DNA of 64,000 nucleotides, from positions 372,001 to 436,000 of the forward strand of contig NZ_PTIR01000002.1 in the NCBI RefSeq assembly GCF_002934455.1, given 5' to 3'. This DNA is from Trinickia symbiotica. GTDB taxonomy: Bacteria > Pseudomonadota > Gammaproteobacteria > Burkholderiales > Burkholderiaceae. Every line of letters starts with the position of its first letter. The stretch's first letter is position 1. Below, piece by piece: positions 20,658 to 26,433 of the stretch. The translations under genes were made by a program, and so were the position numbers. Below the pieces are notes generated by a model. That model made no database searches and was not told the origin of the DNA. It worked only from the letters and a program-made list of their open reading frames with translations.

Positions 20658-20933
20658 CTATTGATAGTTGGAAGACGCCGATTTTTCGATTTTTGCGCGG
20701 CTTAGGTGCGGCATGAGAGCCAGGCCGGCGTCGCGCCGCTTCGATTTCGTATGAGTTTCCGCAGCGGCGCGCGGGAAATGGGGTTGCCGTGGTCGATAAG
20801 GTGGCGGCCGCTTGCCGCCGCGCGCCGGCATGTCCACCGAGGCGTCAATCGTGAACTTGCCGGCCTTCCGGTTCATGACCTTCGATAAGCGAGGCCGAGA
20901 GACGTGCAGTATCCTGGCTGCTTCGACTCGCTC
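20658..20933 (-). pseudogene. C-terminal fragment of a HigA/XRE-type antitoxin gene
   Basis: The frame reads VEAARILHVSRPRLSKVMNR then KFTIDASVDMPARGGKR. This is the second half of an HTH_37-class XRE antitoxin (normally ..QAEAARLLGVTQPRVSDLxxGKxxKFSLDxLVDMLxxAG). There is no plausible start, and the homology begins exactly at the stop codon of the neighbouring DUF799 gene. The missing first half is found at 23241-23390 on the same strand, 2.3 kb away. The tail beyond GGKR is not antitoxin-like, so the 3' end is also altered. Confidence 0.7.
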
Positions 20934-21597
20934 AATCGGTCCCGTACTTGGGCGAGCGAGGGCCATACAACAGCCCGTTGGGCGGCCCTGCATGCAGCAG
21001 GCGGTAACTCGTGACCCCGGCGATATCGTGGCTCTTGTCTGTCAGCGAGTTCGCGATCTGCTTGATCGCCGCCGTCACCAACATAGCGATCAGGCCACCG
21101 CCACTGTTGCTGTTGCCCTCGTTGCTGCTCGCGCTCGCGCGCCCCTCCCAGAGCACATCGCCTGTCTTCAAGTCGATCAGTTTGGCCGAGGCAGTGACGA
21201 CCGTCGCGCTGTCGATCAAGTGGTACACCGTGCCGTACTGAGTCACCTTCGAATATAGCGCCGCATCGGCGCCAAAAATCTCACGCAGTTTGGCGGGTGA
21301 CGTGGCCTGAATCTCGGCAGCCATCGTCAGTCCGTTCTGCTTGAATGTCTCATCCATCACCGCGACCGGGACCACGTAGTAACCGGATTCTGCAAGCGGC
21401 AGCGTCATCTGTGAGAGCATGCTGTTCGTAGCCGTTACATCGGCCGTTTCGTTTTCGGGCGGCAGGACTAGAATCGAACGCGGGCGGCTGCTTTTGAATG
21501 CCGTGTAGTCGACATGCTTCACCGGCTGGGCGCACGCAGCGAGCAAGCCCAGAGTCGACAAAGCAAGCCAAAGCTTGAAAGAAAGGAACTTGAACAT
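20932..21597 (-). CDS. GNA1162/DUF799 lipoprotein
   Basis: Third gene of a lipoprotein operon. 221 residues with lipobox LLAAC (Cys22), then the DUF799 fold: SRPRSILVLPPENETADV, YYVVPVAVMDETFKQNGL and the terminal PRSPKYGTD, close to the usual HPLYGKD ending of the family. GNA1162 proteins are outer-membrane-associated lipoproteins with a TolB-N/CsgG-like fold that occur with CsgG and DUF4810 partners. Its stop codon overlaps the start of the antitoxin remnant, which marks the edge of the inserted operon. Confidence 0.88.
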   Translation of the reverse strand: MFKFLSFKLWLALSTLGLLAACAQPVKHVDYTAFKSSRPRSILVLPPENETADVTATNSMLSQMTLPLAESGYYVVPVAVMDETFKQNGLTMAAEIQATSPAKLREIFGADAALYSKVTQYGTVYHLIDSATVVTASAKLIDLKTGDVLWEGRASASSNEGNSNSGGGLIAMLVTAAIKQIANSLTDKSHDIAGVTSYRLLHAGPPNGLLYGPRSPKYGTD

Positions 21598-21608: not shown

Positions 21609-21968
21609 TCAGGGTTGTTTCGACTTCTTCGTCAGGAAGTCCATATACGTCGACGATTCCGGGAAAAGCTGCTTCTCGGCCGTGAACTCCTGCATGGCTT
21701 GCGTGTCGTTACCGACGCTCGCGTACAACATACCCAGTTGGGCATGAAAGCCGGGGGGCGGCATGTTGCCCTTTGCCCGGATTTCCTGAAGAGCCTTTTC
21801 GAGCGAGTCGATCTGCTCTTGCGGAGATTTTTCCCCCTTGAGGTAGTCGTAGACGGCCGGCTGATAGCCGGTCCACTGATAAAGCGGCGGGTTGTTCGCC
21901 GCGCATCCCGCGAGCAGCATGGCCGCGGCAGGCAGGCAAAGGCCCCGCATGGCACCGATGTGTCTCAT
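21609..21968 (-). CDS. DUF4810 lipoprotein
   Basis: A 119-residue protein with a lipobox ending MLLAGC (Cys22) followed by PLYQWTGYQPAVYDYLKG, the DUF4810 signature, and a short helical repeat region (EKALQEIRAKGN, LGMLYASVGNDTQAMQEF) resembling a TPR. It is the middle gene of the CsgG-DUF4810-DUF799 triad, 11 bases before the DUF799 gene. It probably sits in the outer membrane facing the periplasm. An internal ATG 18 bases downstream would also keep the lipobox. Confidence 0.88.
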   Translation of the reverse strand: MRHIGAMRGLCLPAAAMLLAGCAANNPPLYQWTGYQPAVYDYLKGEKSPQEQIDSLEKALQEIRAKGNMPPPGFHAQLGMLYASVGNDTQAMQEFTAEKQLFPESSTYMDFLTKKSKQP

Positions 21969-22031: not shown

Positions 22032-22706
22032 TTACTTCGCAGCCTTGAGTGCGCCGGCATCAACTTGGTCGACCAGGTGATTGACCGCCTCCTGGATCGC
22101 GAGGTCCAACACCTTGCCGTTAAGCGTCGAATCGTAGCTGGCCGTTCCGCCGAAGCCGATGATTTCGCGGTTCGACAGGCTGAACTCGCCCGCACCCTGA
22201 CTCGAGGCCACGACTTCCGATGTCGTGGTGTCGACCACGTTGATGCTCACTTTCGCGTATGCGACCTGGTTCTTGCCGCGGCCCAGGATGCCGAACAACT
22301 CGTGATCGCCCACTTCCTTGCGGCCGAACTCGGTCACATCGCCCGTGATCACGAAGTTGGCGCCCTTGATCGCCTGCCCCTTCTTCATGAAGCCGGCCTC
22401 CTGGCGGATTTCATCAAGGTTGTCGCGATCGAGCACGTTGAAGCGCCCACTCTGCTGCAAAGCCGTGATCAGAATCGTCTTGGCCTGACCGCCCAAGCGA
22501 TCGATGCCATCCGAGAAGATGCCTCGCATGTAACTGGAGCGGTTGTCGAACTTTCCAACCGAAATGCCGATCGGCTTGCCGGCGAACGGCTTTTGCGCAC
22601 TGGCAACCGGCGGCACCGCCAATGAGCGCGATGACTCCGTTGCACATCCGCCCAACGCGACGACAGCGGCGGCGAGCACGGCCCCATAGGCTTTCGTGAA
22701 ATTCAT
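22032..22706 (-). CDS. CsgG/HfaB-family outer-membrane lipoprotein
   Basis: A 224-residue lipoprotein (ALGGC, Cys21) with the CsgG domain: ISVGKFDNRSSYMRG, LITALQQSGRFNVLDRDNLDEI and ANFVITGDVTEFG. CsgG forms the curli secretion pore and HfaB anchors the Caulobacter holdfast, but standalone members with DUF4810 and DUF799 lack known substrates. The start at 22706 has a GAGGAAAA ribosome site directly before it. It heads the triad and lies 78 bases downstream of a 55-codon frame that follows a sigma-28-like promoter, so it may be expressed with motility genes. No curli-type subunit gene is visible. Confidence 0.85.
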   Translation of the reverse strand: MNFTKAYGAVLAAAVVALGGCATESSRSLAVPPVASAQKPFAGKPIGISVGKFDNRSSYMRGIFSDGIDRLGGQAKTILITALQQSGRFNVLDRDNLDEIRQEAGFMKKGQAIKGANFVITGDVTEFGRKEVGDHELFGILGRGKNQVAYAKVSINVVDTTTSEVVASSQGAGEFSLSNREIIGFGGTASYDSTLNGKVLDLAIQEAVNHLVDQVDAGALKAAK

Positions 22707-22784: not shown

Positions 22785-22952
22785 CTAGCAGGCTGGCGCG
22801 ACCCCGTGCCCAGCCGGCACCGCACTAGGTGCGCTCGAATTCGATGCGATGAGCAACGCTTTGTATGCTTCTCTCGCGTTGCCATCAAGAAGGATGGTTT
22901 CGCCGAAATCTCTCGTCATCGGCAGTTCAACAATCGCACTGGCTTGCTGCAT
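22785..22952 (-). CDS. Small open frame A (55 codons) between the sigma-28-like promoter and csgG-like gene
   Basis: Reads MQQASAIVELPMTRDFGETI and continues to a Cys just before TAG. It begins at the same position relative to the promoter element as small frame B (26120-26266), and the first ~15 residues can be aligned (MxQA..IV...xTR). It has no recognised domain, no strong ribosome site and no signal peptide. It could be a real leader peptide or small protein, or a decayed copy of one. Conservation of the start context between the two copies is the main support. Confidence 0.35.
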   Translation of the reverse strand: MQQASAIVELPMTRDFGETILLDGNAREAYKALLIASNSSAPSAVPAGHGVAPAC

Positions 22953-23125
22953 GTTCACTTCAACCCCGGAGCTCCAAATTTCTAATCGTTATAGACACGT
23001 CGCCTCGAAAATCGACTGGCTTCGCTTGCGCCTCTCTCCGCCGCTGGCGATGCCGGTCGTTTCGACCATATACCCGCCGAATATCGGAATGTTTCAGCAA
23101 ATCTTTAGAAATTTTTTGTAACAGG
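22951..23125 (-). repeat. Copy A of a ~175-bp promoter-leader element
   Basis: Diverged direct copy of 26264-26433. Bases 23101-23125 are identical over 25 bp to 26409-26433, the next ~55 bp are highly similar, the middle is diverged, and the last ~35 bp up to the small-frame ATG are again similar. The pattern of conserved ends and a variable middle points to functional sites rather than recent duplication. Confidence 0.7.
23081..23125 (-). promoter_or_regulatory. Sigma-28 (FliA)-like promoter A
   Basis: On the minus strand TAAAGATT (23107-23100), 11 bases, then TCCGATAT (23088-23081). The FliA consensus is TAAAGTTT-N11-GCCGATAA, so spacing is exact and 12 of 16 bases match. An AT-rich UP-like tract (to 23125) lies upstream. 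The inferred start point is about 120 bases before small frame A and about 370 bases before the CsgG-like gene. Confidence 0.65.
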
Positions 23126-23240
23126 CTGCACGCGCCGTTTCGCCACTTGCCCGGGGATTCGCGATGGTCGCCGGCGGAATGGGCAAATAGGCCTGCGGGC
23201 CGCGCGAACCTTCTTCGTCAGAGCTTAGCGCCGCATGGCC

Positions 23241-23390
23241 CGCGAGTTGCTCCTCTGCAAGCACTTGACTAATGACAGCCGCCATCTGCTCTTGATACAG
23301 CAGCGCCTCCGCGGGAGCGAAGCCCAGTTCGGCAAACCAGTTCGCGCCGGGCCTCGTCACACGGCGGACGCGCGTATCTAGTTTGTTCAC
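23241..23390 (-). pseudogene. N-terminal fragment of the split HigA/XRE-type antitoxin
   Basis: Starts at GTG 23390 with a purine-rich ribosome site. It reads VRRVTRPGANWFAELGFAPA then EALLYQEQMAAVISQVLAEEQL, the first half of an HTH_37-class antitoxin (GxNxFxDLGFxxAEExxxKAxLxxxI). Homology stops near 23241. Joined to 20658-20933 on the same strand the two pieces would make one continuous antitoxin, interrupted by 2.3 kb holding the CsgG operon. The frame itself continues to 23094 into unrelated residues. Confidence 0.65.
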
Positions 23391-23528
23391 CTTTGCTTTT
23401 TCCTTTCTCTTTTGCTTTTTCCTTTCTCGCACGACGGCACAATAGCGGCTCGCAGCAATGTCCTTGTCCGGCTTGGACGTAGCCTGTGTCTGCGCCCCCT
23501 CCGTGTTGGCAGCGCGATTAGCGGGCAC
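23391..23528 (-). pseudogene. C-terminal remnant of the cognate Gp49/HigB-like toxin
   Basis: Directly upstream of the antitoxin fragment the frame reads TQATSKPDKDIAASRYCAVV then RERKKQKRK. This resembles the C-terminal tail of Gp49-like HigB toxins (..KKTQxTPxxDIxxAxxRYxxxxxR). The rest of the toxin and the stop codon before the antitoxin are missing, so both pieces now form one frame. Short match, hence modest confidence. Confidence 0.5.
23392..23428. repeat. Tandem 18-bp purine/pyrimidine-tract repeat
   Basis: Two copies of TTTGCTTTTTCCTTTCTC (plus strand), at 23392-23409 and 23411-23428, separated by one base. On the minus strand this is GA-rich and supplies the ribosome site just before the GTG at 23390. 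Likely slippage-generated. Confidence 0.6.
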
Positions 23529-23608
23529 TGCCTCGCGCAGGTCCTCCTAGCCCGACGCCAGTGCCCTCTAGCCGATCTTCACATACGGCGTTTCACGCTC
23601 TCGCCCAG

Positions 23609-23899
23609 TTACGCGTGGGCAACCCTCGTCGTCAGCTCAAGGCCCAACGCTTTGAGTACCGCCAGCATCGTCTTCAATGTCGGGTTGCCTTGATCGCTGA
23701 AGGAACGATACAGCTGCTCGCGCGAGAGTCCCGTTTGCCCCGCAATCTGTGCGATTCCCTTGGCACGGGCTACCACACCCAGTGCATGAGCGATGTAGGC
23801 TGCATCGTTCGTCTGGAACGCCTCAGCCATGAACACCGCCATCGCTTCCTCACTGCCTAAGTCCTCAGCAGGGTCATAGGTCGTTAGCTTTTCGGTCAT
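23609..23899 (-). CDS. HigA-like antitoxin (addiction-module antidote, XRE family)
   Basis: A 96-residue protein beginning MTEKLTTYDPAEDLGSEEAM, the usual opening of the COG3636 antidote family. It carries a helix-turn-helix IAQIAGQTGLSREQLYRSFS and the family-typical PTLKTMLAVLKALGLEL. The ATG follows the toxin stop by one base, with GGAGAG as ribosome site, so the pair is translated together in toxin-first order. It should bind the toxin and repress the shared promoter. Intact, unlike the second HigBA locus next to it. Confidence 0.88.
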   Translation of the reverse strand: MTEKLTTYDPAEDLGSEEAMAVFMAEAFQTNDAAYIAHALGVVARAKGIAQIAGQTGLSREQLYRSFSDQGNPTLKTMLAVLKALGLELTTRVAHA

Positions 23900-23900
23900 C

Positions 23901-24212
23901 TCACTCTCCCAACTCATTTGCCAGGCGCTTTGCCGCCTCAATGTCTCTCGCTTGCCCGCTCTTCGTTCCACCGCACAGCAACAAGACGATCGTATCGCCC
24001 CGCCTCTGGAAGTAGATGCGATACCCCGGCCCATAGTGGATACGCAACTCGCTGATCCCTTGCCCGACCGGCTCGGCATCACCCACATGCCCAAAGGCCA
24101 GGCGATCAAGCCTCGATGCGATCAGCGCTCGGGCTCGCTCGTCCTTCAGTCCCGCTCGCCATTTTTGGAACGTCTCAGTTTGCTTCAGCTCCATCGCCAT
24201 TGTGAAATACAT
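23901..24212 (-). CDS. RelE/HigB-like toxin (COG3657 addiction-module killer family)
   Basis: Up to 103 residues; internal ATGs at 24200 and 24194 are equally plausible, the latter giving the typical family start MELKQTETFQKW. Family motifs are present: RIDRL-like SRLDRLAFGHVGDAEPVG, then GISELRIHYGPGYRIYFQRR and the end LLCGGTKSGQARDIEAAKRL. These proteins are ribosome-dependent mRNA interferases held in check by the antidote encoded one base downstream. No disruption is visible, so this module is probably functional. Confidence 0.88.
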   Translation of the reverse strand: MYFTMAMELKQTETFQKWRAGLKDERARALIASRLDRLAFGHVGDAEPVGQGISELRIHYGPGYRIYFQRRGDTIVLLLCGGTKSGQARDIEAAKRLANELGE

Positions 24213-24239
24213 TGTAATTTATAAACTACTCTCTGGGAA

Positions 24240-24483
24240 GGTTCGTATCGCTCGCGCGGCGAGCATGCTTCCTTCACGGCACTGAACACGTGCCGAGGCA
24301 GACGCTTTTCCACCCGCAGCATGTCGATATCGGCGTCGGGGTTTGACAGAATCCGGTGACTGCGCACCAACCAACCGAAGCACACCTTCACCGGGACCAG
24401 CCGCGTATGTTGGCTGCCCCCCTCAGCGCCTCGCCGTTTTTCTTGCGATATCGGAACAAGTAACCCTGATAGCGGCCCAGGCC
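24240..24483 (-). pseudogene. Fragment of a tyrosine recombinase/integrase, frameshifted
   Basis: Minus-strand frame 1 gives LGRYQGYLFRYRKKNGEAL; after a run of six G residues near 24418 a second frame continues GSQHTRLVPVKVCFGWLVRS and HRILSNPDADIDMLRVEKRL. Together these match the N-terminal core-binding part of XerC/D-like recombinases (..RYQxYLFxYRKKNGxPL...QHxRLxPVKxxFxWL...NPAxDIxLxRxEKRLP). The catalytic domain is gone. It is the only sign of a mobile-element enzyme in the island. Confidence 0.6.
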
Positions 24484-24817
24484 CGGGCCCGACGAGCACC
24501 TGCGACACAGTTCGAGGGCGTCTCAGGCTCGATCCGAAGGAACGCGAAGGCATCGAAACGTCATCGCCAGCGTCTTTCTTAAGCACGACGCCAAGCGTTG
24601 CACGCAGGCCGTCTCCGCTAATCGCGCCGACGACAGAAAGCAAGGGACACGGCGGCTAAGAAGGAGAGATTTATCGATACAAAAGTGCGGGCCGCATCCG
24701 CTGCCACCAATGAGGCCCGCTCCCCGCGATCCACTCCGAACGGGGGAGGTGACCATCGCTCACGCCGGTCTTAAACCATCAACCCAACTCGCCGAACGCA
24801 CGAGCAGCTACCTAAGG
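24484..24817. other. Gap without recognisable gene
   Basis: About 330 bases between the recombinase fragment and the haemagglutinin-like fragment. No frame with a credible start or protein motif was found; probably decayed sequence of either neighbour. Confidence 0.5.
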
Positions 24818-25012
24818 CTAATCAGCACTGCCTATGATCCGCAATCCGCTCCCCAATAAAAGTTCAAGAGCCTGATCCGGCGTAATCGATTGCCCGGTCT
24901 TGTCAGCGTAGAACTTGGCGAACGCGGCCGCGTTGTCCTTCGCCCACTGCCGTTCATCCGGATGGAGTTGCCGATTGTAAAGATCCTTTCTATGCCGACG
25001 GAGTCGGCGGCC
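24818..25012 (-). pseudogene. C-terminal fragment of a filamentous-haemagglutinin/CdiA-like protein
   Basis: A startless 64-codon stretch, preceded in frame by TAG, reading YNRQLHPDERQWAKDNAAAF and AKFYADKTGQSITPDQALEL. The YNRQLHxxE..A...A...G.(S/T).(E/D).A motif is common near the end of large TpsA/CdiA-type exoproteins, before the toxin domain. The rest of the huge gene is missing. An FhaC-like partner fragment lies upstream on the same strand. Confidence 0.5.
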
Positions 25013-25058
25013 CTACCTATCGACTACCTGCATGTCTTGATTGTGGTAGCGTTGTACC

Positions 25059-25304
25059 TCATGGATATGAGCACAGTTGGCTATTCTTGTATTCCCCAAC
25101 ATTTTCCTGAATCTCCGCAAGCACACCCTGTTTACAGAAAGAAGCCGGATTGAGCGAGAACTGCTGCCAGCCCAGATCAACCAGGGTTTTGATGTCCCGA
25201 TTCCGAAGCTGCTGCGACCATGAGTCCGCACGAATTAGAGCCGACAACAATGCTCCGCCGAACTTCGCGGTTGCAAGGTTTCCCGAATCTCCAATATCGT
25301 TTGC
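25059..25304 (-). pseudogene. Unrecognised coding-like fragment
   Basis: Open frame of 81 codons without a start codon (preceded by TGA), reading GDSGNLATAKFGGALLSALI and DIKTLVDLGWQQFSLNPASF. Its amino-acid composition is protein-like and unlike the shadow frames around it, but no family was recognised. It lies between the two secretion remnants and may be a piece of the lost exoprotein or of an immunity gene. Confidence 0.3.
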
Positions 25305-25326
25305 GAATACTCAGGAGTCATCTGAG

Positions 25327-25755
25327 TTACCTCTTAATCATAGCGGAAGTAGCACTGTCGTCCGGCGAGAGCGCGCGGACGCCGGTGGCGCGAACCGGCT
25401 CGCTGAGCCCTTCCGGAATCCGCAGCGTCAGTTCCTCGACCTTGAAGCACGGCGACTCTTCGGGCACGCGTCCGTCGTCGACTGGCTCGGCGCGGTGCTG
25501 CGGCTCGAGCTCCACCCTGGGCGCGTTCAATGCGCGCTCGCGCTCGATCGCCTGCTGCTGCGCACGCCGCCGCTGCTCTTGTTCGTCGAGCGTGCTCGTT
25601 TCTTGCGCGTGCGACGTGCATGACCAGCTCATTGCGGCAAGCGCGCCGCAGAGCGGCAGGACCGCGCGCAAGCGGGCGCTCCAGGGGACACGCTTCGTTG
25701 TCGTCGGCCAACCCGAGAGCCTGTCGATTGCAGACTTGCTACCTCGTTTTTTCAT
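25327..25755 (-). pseudogene. Truncated FhaC/ShlB-type two-partner secretion transporter (N-terminus only)
   Basis: 142 codons: a signal-like N-terminus ending TSHAQ, a Gln/Arg-rich helix (EQEQRRRAQQQAIERERALN), a proline-poor linker and ESPCFKVEELTLRIPEGL, which corresponds to the ESPCFxIxxIxLxG start of the POTRA domain in TpsB proteins. Full-length relatives have about 550-600 residues, so POTRA and the 16-strand barrel are missing. With the haemagglutinin-like tail downstream this marks a deleted two-partner or CDI-type locus. Confidence 0.6.
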
Positions 25756-25961
25756 TCTCTCTATGGCTTCTTCTTATCAGTCGCTCGCCGGCACGATCGA
25801 ATGCCAATGCGAGCGACGTGCTTCAAGCAAAAGCAAAGCAAAAGCGGGCAACACGGCTGTCAGACTTCACGATGACCAGATGCCGTCGCTCTCAGATAGA
25901 TCGACAAAGGAAATCCCGCGACGGGTACCGCAGTCGCTTTAAAGCCAAACGATTGCCCGCT

Positions 25962-25981
25962 CACGCTTCGATAGAAGCGTG
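25962..25981. other. Perfect hairpin in the 25756-26119 gap
   Basis: CACGCTTC-GATA-GAAGCGTG, 8-bp stem with a tetraloop, no T-tract. It is the only structured signal seen in the ~365-base gap between small frame B and the truncated transporter gene; no gene was recognised in that gap. It may be a terminator remnant or mRNA structure. Confidence 0.4.
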
Positions 25982-26119
25982 AAACAACGCGTTGGGACCG
26001 ATCTATGCGGCCCGCTTGGAGCGGGTATCCAACGAAGGCAAATGCGAAGCTTCGGTATCGCCGTCGTCAAACGAAACGGCGTTCGAGAAAACCTTGTCGA
26101 GAAAGCAGTGCGAAAGCAG

Positions 26120-26266
26120 CTAGCTCAATCGGCGCGCGCCTGAAGCGCCCGAAACTCGATAGAAGGGCAACGTCGTGATTGCTTCTGTGACGTTGTTGCA
26201 CATATAGTCAGCATGGTCGACGCCTCTCGTCGTCGACTGCCCAATGACCCCGAATGCTTGTGACAT
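26120..26266 (-). CDS. Small open frame B (48 codons) after the second sigma-28-like promoter
   Basis: Reads MSQAFGVIGQSTTRGVDHAD and ends GARRLS-TAG. The ATG lies in the same GAACATG context and at nearly the same distance from the promoter as small frame A. The first 15 codons align with frame A, then the two diverge. No recognised domain and no strong ribosome site; it may be a small protein, a leader peptide or a relic. Confidence 0.35.
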   Translation of the reverse strand: MSQAFGVIGQSTTRGVDHADYMCNNVTEAITTLPFYRVSGASGARRLS

Positions 26267-26433
26267 GTTCAGCCCCGGAACTCGAAATTTTTAATCTTGA
26301 TGAATGGCATCGCCGCAAAAAACGGCGGCGTTTCCCGTCTCTATGTACGGATAGCGGTGCCGATAGTTTCCGACCACACACCTGCCGAATATCGGCATGT
26401 CGAAGCCGATCTTTAGAAATTTTTTGTAACAGG
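26264..26433 (-). repeat. Copy B of the ~175-bp promoter-leader element
   Basis: Same orientation as copy A (22951-23125). The leader holds an additional GC stem with a T-rich loop (CGCCGCCGTTTTTTGCGGCG on the minus strand) not present in copy A. Confidence 0.7.
26389..26433 (-). promoter_or_regulatory. Sigma-28 (FliA)-like promoter B
   Basis: Minus-strand TAAAGATC (26415-26408), 11 bases, then GCCGATAT (26396-26389). This matches 13 of 16 bases of the FliA consensus TAAAGTTT-N11-GCCGATAA with exact spacing, and is preceded by the same AT-rich tract as promoter A. It is the better of the two matches. The expected start is about 115 bases before small frame B. Confidence 0.7.

Follow-up and report, generated by a model that had tools for sequence, protein, structure and literature searches.

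A stretch of 64,000 nucleotides from the genome of Trinickia symbiotica, a soil bacterium, was analysed (the window). It carries two related modules on the minus strand, copy A and copy B, each made up of an AT-rich core, a promoter element, a leader and a small open reading frame. Copy A precedes an intact operon of lipoprotein genes, and copy B precedes the relic of a two-partner secretion (TPS) locus. Both copies are quite likely to be class III flagellar promoters, recognised by the sigma-28 factor FliA, that stand before surface-secretion genes and lead into a 5' leader; as a claim built on sequence alone, the promoter reading is strong. The first-pass annotation of the window had described two such copies and read them as sigma-28 promoters. 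The copies are real and lie where it placed them, and the reading is well supported by the rank of both sites under a FliA weight matrix, by a flgMN-type site in the same genome, by orthologous promoters in relatives and by a promoter before a tpsA-type gene.

Two copies of a FliA-type promoter

The 25-bp core, CCTGTTACAAAAAATTTCTAAAGAT, is the same letter for letter in copy A (23101-23125) and copy B (26409-26433), and a 23-nt part of it occurs at two places in the window with up to three mismatches allowed, against a mean of 0.00 in 100 shuffles. The core of copy A overlaps the -35 box of the promoter element (23080-23107), which reads TAAAG-N14-TCCGATATT, while the element of copy B (26388-26415), TAAAG-N14-GCCGATATT, is a perfect site. 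Both conform to TAAAG-N14-[T/G]CCGATATT with the spacing of FliA sites. The predicted leaders, delimited by alignments and presumed to be transcribed, span 22953-23079 in copy A and 26267-26387 in copy B. The former ends in an A-rich stretch, CGGGG and GAACATG (CTCCGGGGTTGAAGTGAACATG), and the latter ends in TTCCGGGGCTGAACATG, with TTAAAAATTTCGAGTTCCGGGGCTGAAC at its end. From the ATG of the shared GAACATG context a frame of 55 codons opens in copy A (22785-22952) and one of 48 codons in copy B (26120-26266), neither with a Pfam match. Each component named by the first-pass annotation, from the identical core and the TAAAG-N14 element to the similar leader, GAACATG and the frames of 48-55 codons, was recovered.

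By BLAST, copy B aligns with copy A over 166 nt at 73% identity (E 1.5e-19), and a 21-nt core with up to three mismatches is found in the whole T. symbiotica genome (6.7 Mb in 61 contigs) only at these two copies. Pairwise identity is 0.73 between copies A and B and 0.54-0.63 between either of them and the copies of two sister species; because the first value exceeds the others, the two window copies are probably the product of a duplication within this lineage or were kept alike.

The weight matrix was derived from 25 published Escherichia coli FliA sites obtained by chromatin immunoprecipitation, with scores above 4 (PMC4183435). Among 127,946 positions scanned in the window, copy A ranks first with 27.6 bits and copy B second with 25.4 bits, the third position scoring 14.1; scores of 11-32 bits are obtained for the E. 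coli sites from which the matrix was built. Judged by the consensus letters (-35 TAAAG, -10 GCCGATA and a 14-nt spacer), copy B matches 12/12 and copy A 11/12. The proven E. coli sites include TAAAC combined with GCCGATATT (motAB-cheAW) and with GCCGACATA (aer) (PMC4183435). A sigma-70 scan gave no site at either copy and was not above chance.

The FliA_WhiG model scores above the cut-off in all 11 Trinickia genomes. The perfect sequence TAAAG-N14-GCCGATA is present at six sites in the T. symbiotica genome, copy B among them. Another is placed 34 nt ahead of the GTG start of a putative flgM, behind which comes flgN; further perfect sites lie upstream of GGDEF sensor and PAS-GGDEF-EAL genes, all of these names being read from translations. 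A perfect site in contig 23 (locus L105) precedes a gene whose product was read as an OmpA-like lipoprotein, and the sixth site has a position unlike that of a promoter.

Promoter, leader and small frame in relatives

Upstream regions were compared in two sets. The fhaC group consists of 22 regions of 900 nt each, those of the window relic, of G009, G008, G083, G206 and G194, and of loci L083-L098; L099 (47% identity) and L100 (a fragment) were left out. Where tpsA comes first in a locus, its promoter is many kb ahead of fhaC, beyond the reach of such a region. The csgG set holds 29 of 30 loci taken from the 108 of 249 family genomes in which csgG is present at E <= 1e-20, L057 being excluded since the locus ends at a contig end; three of its regions are short (213 nt in L050, about 755 nt in L048 and L049).

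Two scans were made of these regions, the 12-letter score resting on the consensus and the matrix on the published E. coli sites. With the former, a sense site of at least 10/12 is found in 9 of the 22 fhaC-group regions, copy B included, compared with 15 of 440 dinucleotide shuffles, 1/22 in antisense and 0/19 before paralogous fhaC genes. With the latter, at least 15 bits are reached in 7/22 regions in sense, in 1/22 in antisense and in 0/19 paralogs. A degenerate form, CTAAA[GC]-N14/15-[GT][CT]CG[AT][TC]A, with TTCG often coming next, occurs in sense in 13 of a chosen subset of 22 regions, from Trinickia and Paraburkholderia, and in none in antisense; since this pattern was written post hoc, after the sequences had been viewed, its comparison with shuffles is optimistic. 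Locus L134 of G159 (putative P. gardini) has the promoter followed 118 nt downstream by a tpsA-type start; the start was assigned to the TPS type by reading of its sequence, given its likeness to the L087 frame, for which Pfam reports a TPS domain.

A search for the core in other genomes had been proposed by the first-pass annotation. With up to three mismatches the core is found at 10 places in 8 of 61 genomes. Four of these places were recognised as the module, namely the two in the window and one each before fhaC in G008 and G009; the other six matches lie in G011, G015, G029, G031 and G033. When copy A and its surroundings (501 nt) served as a DNA query, 1 of 41 genomes was hit, that of T. 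symbiotica itself; such searches are insensitive here, because the G008 and G009 copies were missed.

At the position of the small frames of the window, other species carry a frame that is ESPR-like or contains a TPS domain. Frames before fhaC with ESPR-like starts, judged by eye, occur in Paraburkholderia loci L086, L089, L090, L022 and L097, and the corresponding frame of L087 contains a truncated TPS domain (PF05860, E 8.6e-18). The first-pass annotation had suggested a conserved small protein or leader peptide. The notion of a conserved protein is not borne out: the frames keep their position and start region, and the peptide does not appear to be conserved. An ESPR origin (PF13018) of the two window frames was also considered and gave no match, and among other leader frames only one of seven touched the model (L097, E 0.018, below the cut-off; L086 and L090 did not), the control, the TpsA start of G009, scoring E 2.5e-13. 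In L091 (Burkholderia sp.) FhaC itself begins with MKKYSYRLAFRKLRGT, which by eye is an ESPR-like start fused to TpsB.

Control of fhaC or csgG by the small frame as a regulatory leader peptide, through stalling or attenuation, is unlikely, even though several features of the leaders speak for it. In 6 of 16 fhaC loci an upstream frame either overlaps the start of fhaC or stops no more than 10 nt from it, and 13 of the 14 csgG leaders of genus g12 (perhaps Burkholderia) hold a frame of 41-53 codons in which gaps seem to come in multiples of three. The signature [AT]AAAA-N4-17-CGGGG is enriched over shuffles, being present in 9/22 fhaC-group regions (shuffle mean 0.46) and 9/29 csgG regions (0.12), with none in antisense; it was, however, written post hoc, is missing from copy A, matches 1/19 paralogs, and all nine csgG cases come from g12. 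The bare pattern of A-run, CGGGG and ATG gives 43 matches in the T. symbiotica genome against 11 for the reversed control and was not used as evidence. The frame is weakly coding in g12 (codon-position differences 0.31/0.34/0.42, GC3 0.62 over 13 of the 14 frames, L052 being dropped since its frame runs into csgG), and the leaders share neither a fold nor a terminator: folding revealed no common structure, with only G009 significant (z -4.97, 20 shuffles), and a terminator scan of the leaders was not above chance. Rfam gave one match on the four module loci, at chance level. In L052 the leader frame continues in frame into csgG for 292 codons, which is either a fusion of the leader with csgG or a shift introduced in sequencing.

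From these comparisons, the small frame is probably translated, or was until recently, with a peptide of no importance in itself, and is probably what survives of a tpsA start. The further idea that a tpsA-derived mini-frame with its own ribosome site has been kept as a leader, controlled by the flagellar sigma factor and coupled either to fhaC or to the csgG lipoprotein genes, is improbable; were it true, the export machinery would be made only while tpsA-type starts are translated in motile cells.

Points against a FliA promoter and other explanations

Several observations weigh against reading the copies as FliA promoters with a leader. In the fhaC group, 13 of 22 regions score below 10/12, including G009, putative T. 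fusca and putative T. diaoshuihuensis; two of these 13, L087 and L092, carry the site with an N15 spacer, and in putative T. fusca the leader is kept while the FliA site is absent. Among csgG regions only 3/29 reach 11/12 (shuffles 1/580), namely copy A, G145, with a perfect site, and G228, where the site is differently placed; in G138 and G212 the site is present before csgG with an N15 spacer, and no such promoter precedes csgG in two sister species, G008 and G004 (putative T. fusca). Family-wide, the Paraburkholderia-type pattern with at most one mismatch gives six matches in 200 genomes, as many as the reversed pattern; the exact match is L134, one-mismatch matches are in G129, G022, G151 and G005, and the sixth is copy B. 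In the T. symbiotica genome the pattern at two mismatches is not enriched (459 against 729 for the reversed pattern), and because it is rarer than this control only near-perfect sites carry weight. Folding of the leader is ordinary for the window copies (z -0.19 and -0.38). L094 (P. rhynchosiae) has an antisense FliA-like site near 2277 on the minus strand which, at 27.6 bits, is stronger than its sense site and perhaps serves a divergent gene.

The A-rich half of the core, too, is conserved beyond the needs of sigma-28, and another factor may bind there. An alternative is that the core is an operator of another regulator, with a TGTTAC-A-rich box, working with a different sigma factor, and that the sigma-28 match is a by-product. 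In G009, TGTTACAAAAAA is retained though the FliA boxes are lost (CAAAA, with shorter spacing), and similar TTAC-A-rich boxes lacking a FliA site precede fhaC (L022, L090) and csgG (L046, L047). The Paraburkholderia loci, however, keep the -35 and -10 boxes with N14/15 spacing while the part upstream varies, and the boxes fit the proven FliA variants of E. coli, which makes an operator explanation doubtful. That the copies are a small mobile or repeat element of the MITE (miniature inverted-repeat transposable element) type, as two similar copies 3.3 kb apart might suggest, is very improbable given that the genome has two copies only, that G008 and G009 have one each, before fhaC, and that copy A has no match among 72,556 plasmid records.

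The first-pass annotation had called the copies a regulatory cassette placed in front of surface-secretion genes. The link to such genes is well supported by sequence, but the word cassette is too strong, because promoter and leader separate in relatives and the genome has two copies only.

Genes behind the two copies and their possible regulation

Behind copy A, three genes follow in order on the minus strand and form an intact operon: a csgG-like lipoprotein gene (22032-22706; PF03783, E 2.3e-26), a DUF4810 gene (21609-21968; PF16068, E 2.1e-32) and a GNA1162-like lipoprotein gene (20932-21597; PF05643, E 1.2e-87). The first-pass annotation had named a CsgG/DUF4810/DUF799 operon, and the Pfam matches agree with its gene names, DUF799 corresponding to the GNA1162-like family. 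Such operons elsewhere have the same three genes in the same order; the one in the window stands under a sigma-28-type promoter, whereas some of genus g21 come directly after fhaC. In G030, G087 and G096 (L075, L076 and L077; fhaC of G096 is a fragment) csgG directly follows fhaC; therefore, the lipoprotein and TPS gene sets are linked elsewhere too. Because csgG of the Trinickia genomes G008 and G004 lacks the promoter, the comparison suggests that copy A was gained from the TPS locus.

Behind copy B, a minus-strand relic of FhaC/TpsB (25327-25755) resembles residues 1-143 of the intact G009 ortholog (62% identity, E 9e-39), in agreement with the FhaC-like remnant of the first-pass annotation, and then has an unrelated end; the fragment has no Pfam match. 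Some 375 nt beyond it lies a 50-nt stretch (24936-24985) that shows 94% identity with G008 DNA located roughly 360 nt beyond tpsA (E 2.3e-15). It is part of a remnant of the far end of tpsA (24824-24985, minus strand), which is recognisable by DNA and tblastx likeness to G008 and G009: 33 nt are 91% identical to the inside of the tpsA end of G009, and tblastx against G008 gives 54 aa at 59%. The window thus appears to keep both ends of one TPS locus, whose middle, comprising the remainder of fhaC and almost the whole of tpsA, would have been lost. A full TPS locus, with a TpsB of POTRA and ShlB domains and a TPS-domain TpsA, was looked for in the window, and only relic pieces were found. In G009 the module stands before a complete fhaC (ShlB, E 4.6e-94, and POTRA), followed by a TpsA of 3632 aa with ESPR (E 2.5e-13), and in G008 before a complete fhaC followed by a tpsA frame of 3280 aa. 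The G009 locus has the FHA-type arrangement of fhaC and then an ESPR-bearing TpsA; compared with FHA-type loci, there is an extra small frame between promoter and fhaC, and in the window only a relic is left.

Once the flagellar hook has been completed, FlgM is exported and FliA is set free. If copies A and B are FliA promoters, free FliA would transcribe the lipoprotein operon, and in relatives fhaC and tpsA, along with the chemotaxis and filament genes. The csgG operon would then belong to the late flagellar class, and outer-membrane export parts would be made by motile cells. The ancestral unit may have driven a TPS locus, with TpsB/FhaC and a TpsA adhesin; copy A would be a second copy, produced by the putative duplication, that now heads the intact csgG-DUF4810-GNA1162-like operon. 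Copy B still looks active and would be aimed at the relic; if it fires, it would yield only a leader and a dead fhaC fragment. The leader holds the A-rich stretch, a GGGG run resembling a Shine-Dalgarno sequence and the short frame, which, if functional, would act by being translated and not through its peptide. The sequence match, the conservation in part of the relatives, the order of the genes and the relics are observed. We infer transcription by FliA, its timing (from the general FliA-FlgM mechanism), the duplication and the role of the leader from these patterns, which together suggest that cells turn on the export of a surface adhesin when they become motile. The two programmes, motility and adhesion, are commonly viewed as opposed. 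If the proposed regulation is real, motile Trinickia and Paraburkholderia cells would make a surface for attachment or competition in advance. It also provides a condition under which expression of the CsgG/DUF4810/GNA1162-like operon can be tested.

The E. coli FliA class III promoters (PMC4183435) have the same TAAAG-N14-GCCGATA, spacing and -10 variants as the window copies; in contrast to them, the window copies precede TPS or lipoprotein genes and not flagellar ones, and have an extra AT-rich core upstream. A chemotaxis gene cluster of Burkholderia pseudomallei carries a FliA-like motif (PMC3772027). The two-partner hemolysin xhlBA of Xenorhabdus belongs to the flagellar regulon and is likewise a TPS locus expressed with flagella; there, however, activation is direct and by FliZ, unlike the FliA promoter proposed here (PMC3814329). 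A Xenorhabdus FliAZ paper is cited in PMC5131962. In the open-access literature searched, no report was found that places a FliA promoter in front of TPS or CsgG-type operons in Burkholderiaceae, and the proposed regulatory link appears to be new to that literature and of a known kind.

Two further minus-strand features lie near the copies. A frame of 144 aa (23097-23528), with no Pfam match, is located upstream of copy A, and its end overlaps the promoter core; its middle may resemble Xre-type antitoxin starts. Between copies A and B, at 23609-24212, a toxin-type gene, Gp49-like below the cut-off, and an HI1420-type antidote gene occupy the space vacated by the missing TPS genes.

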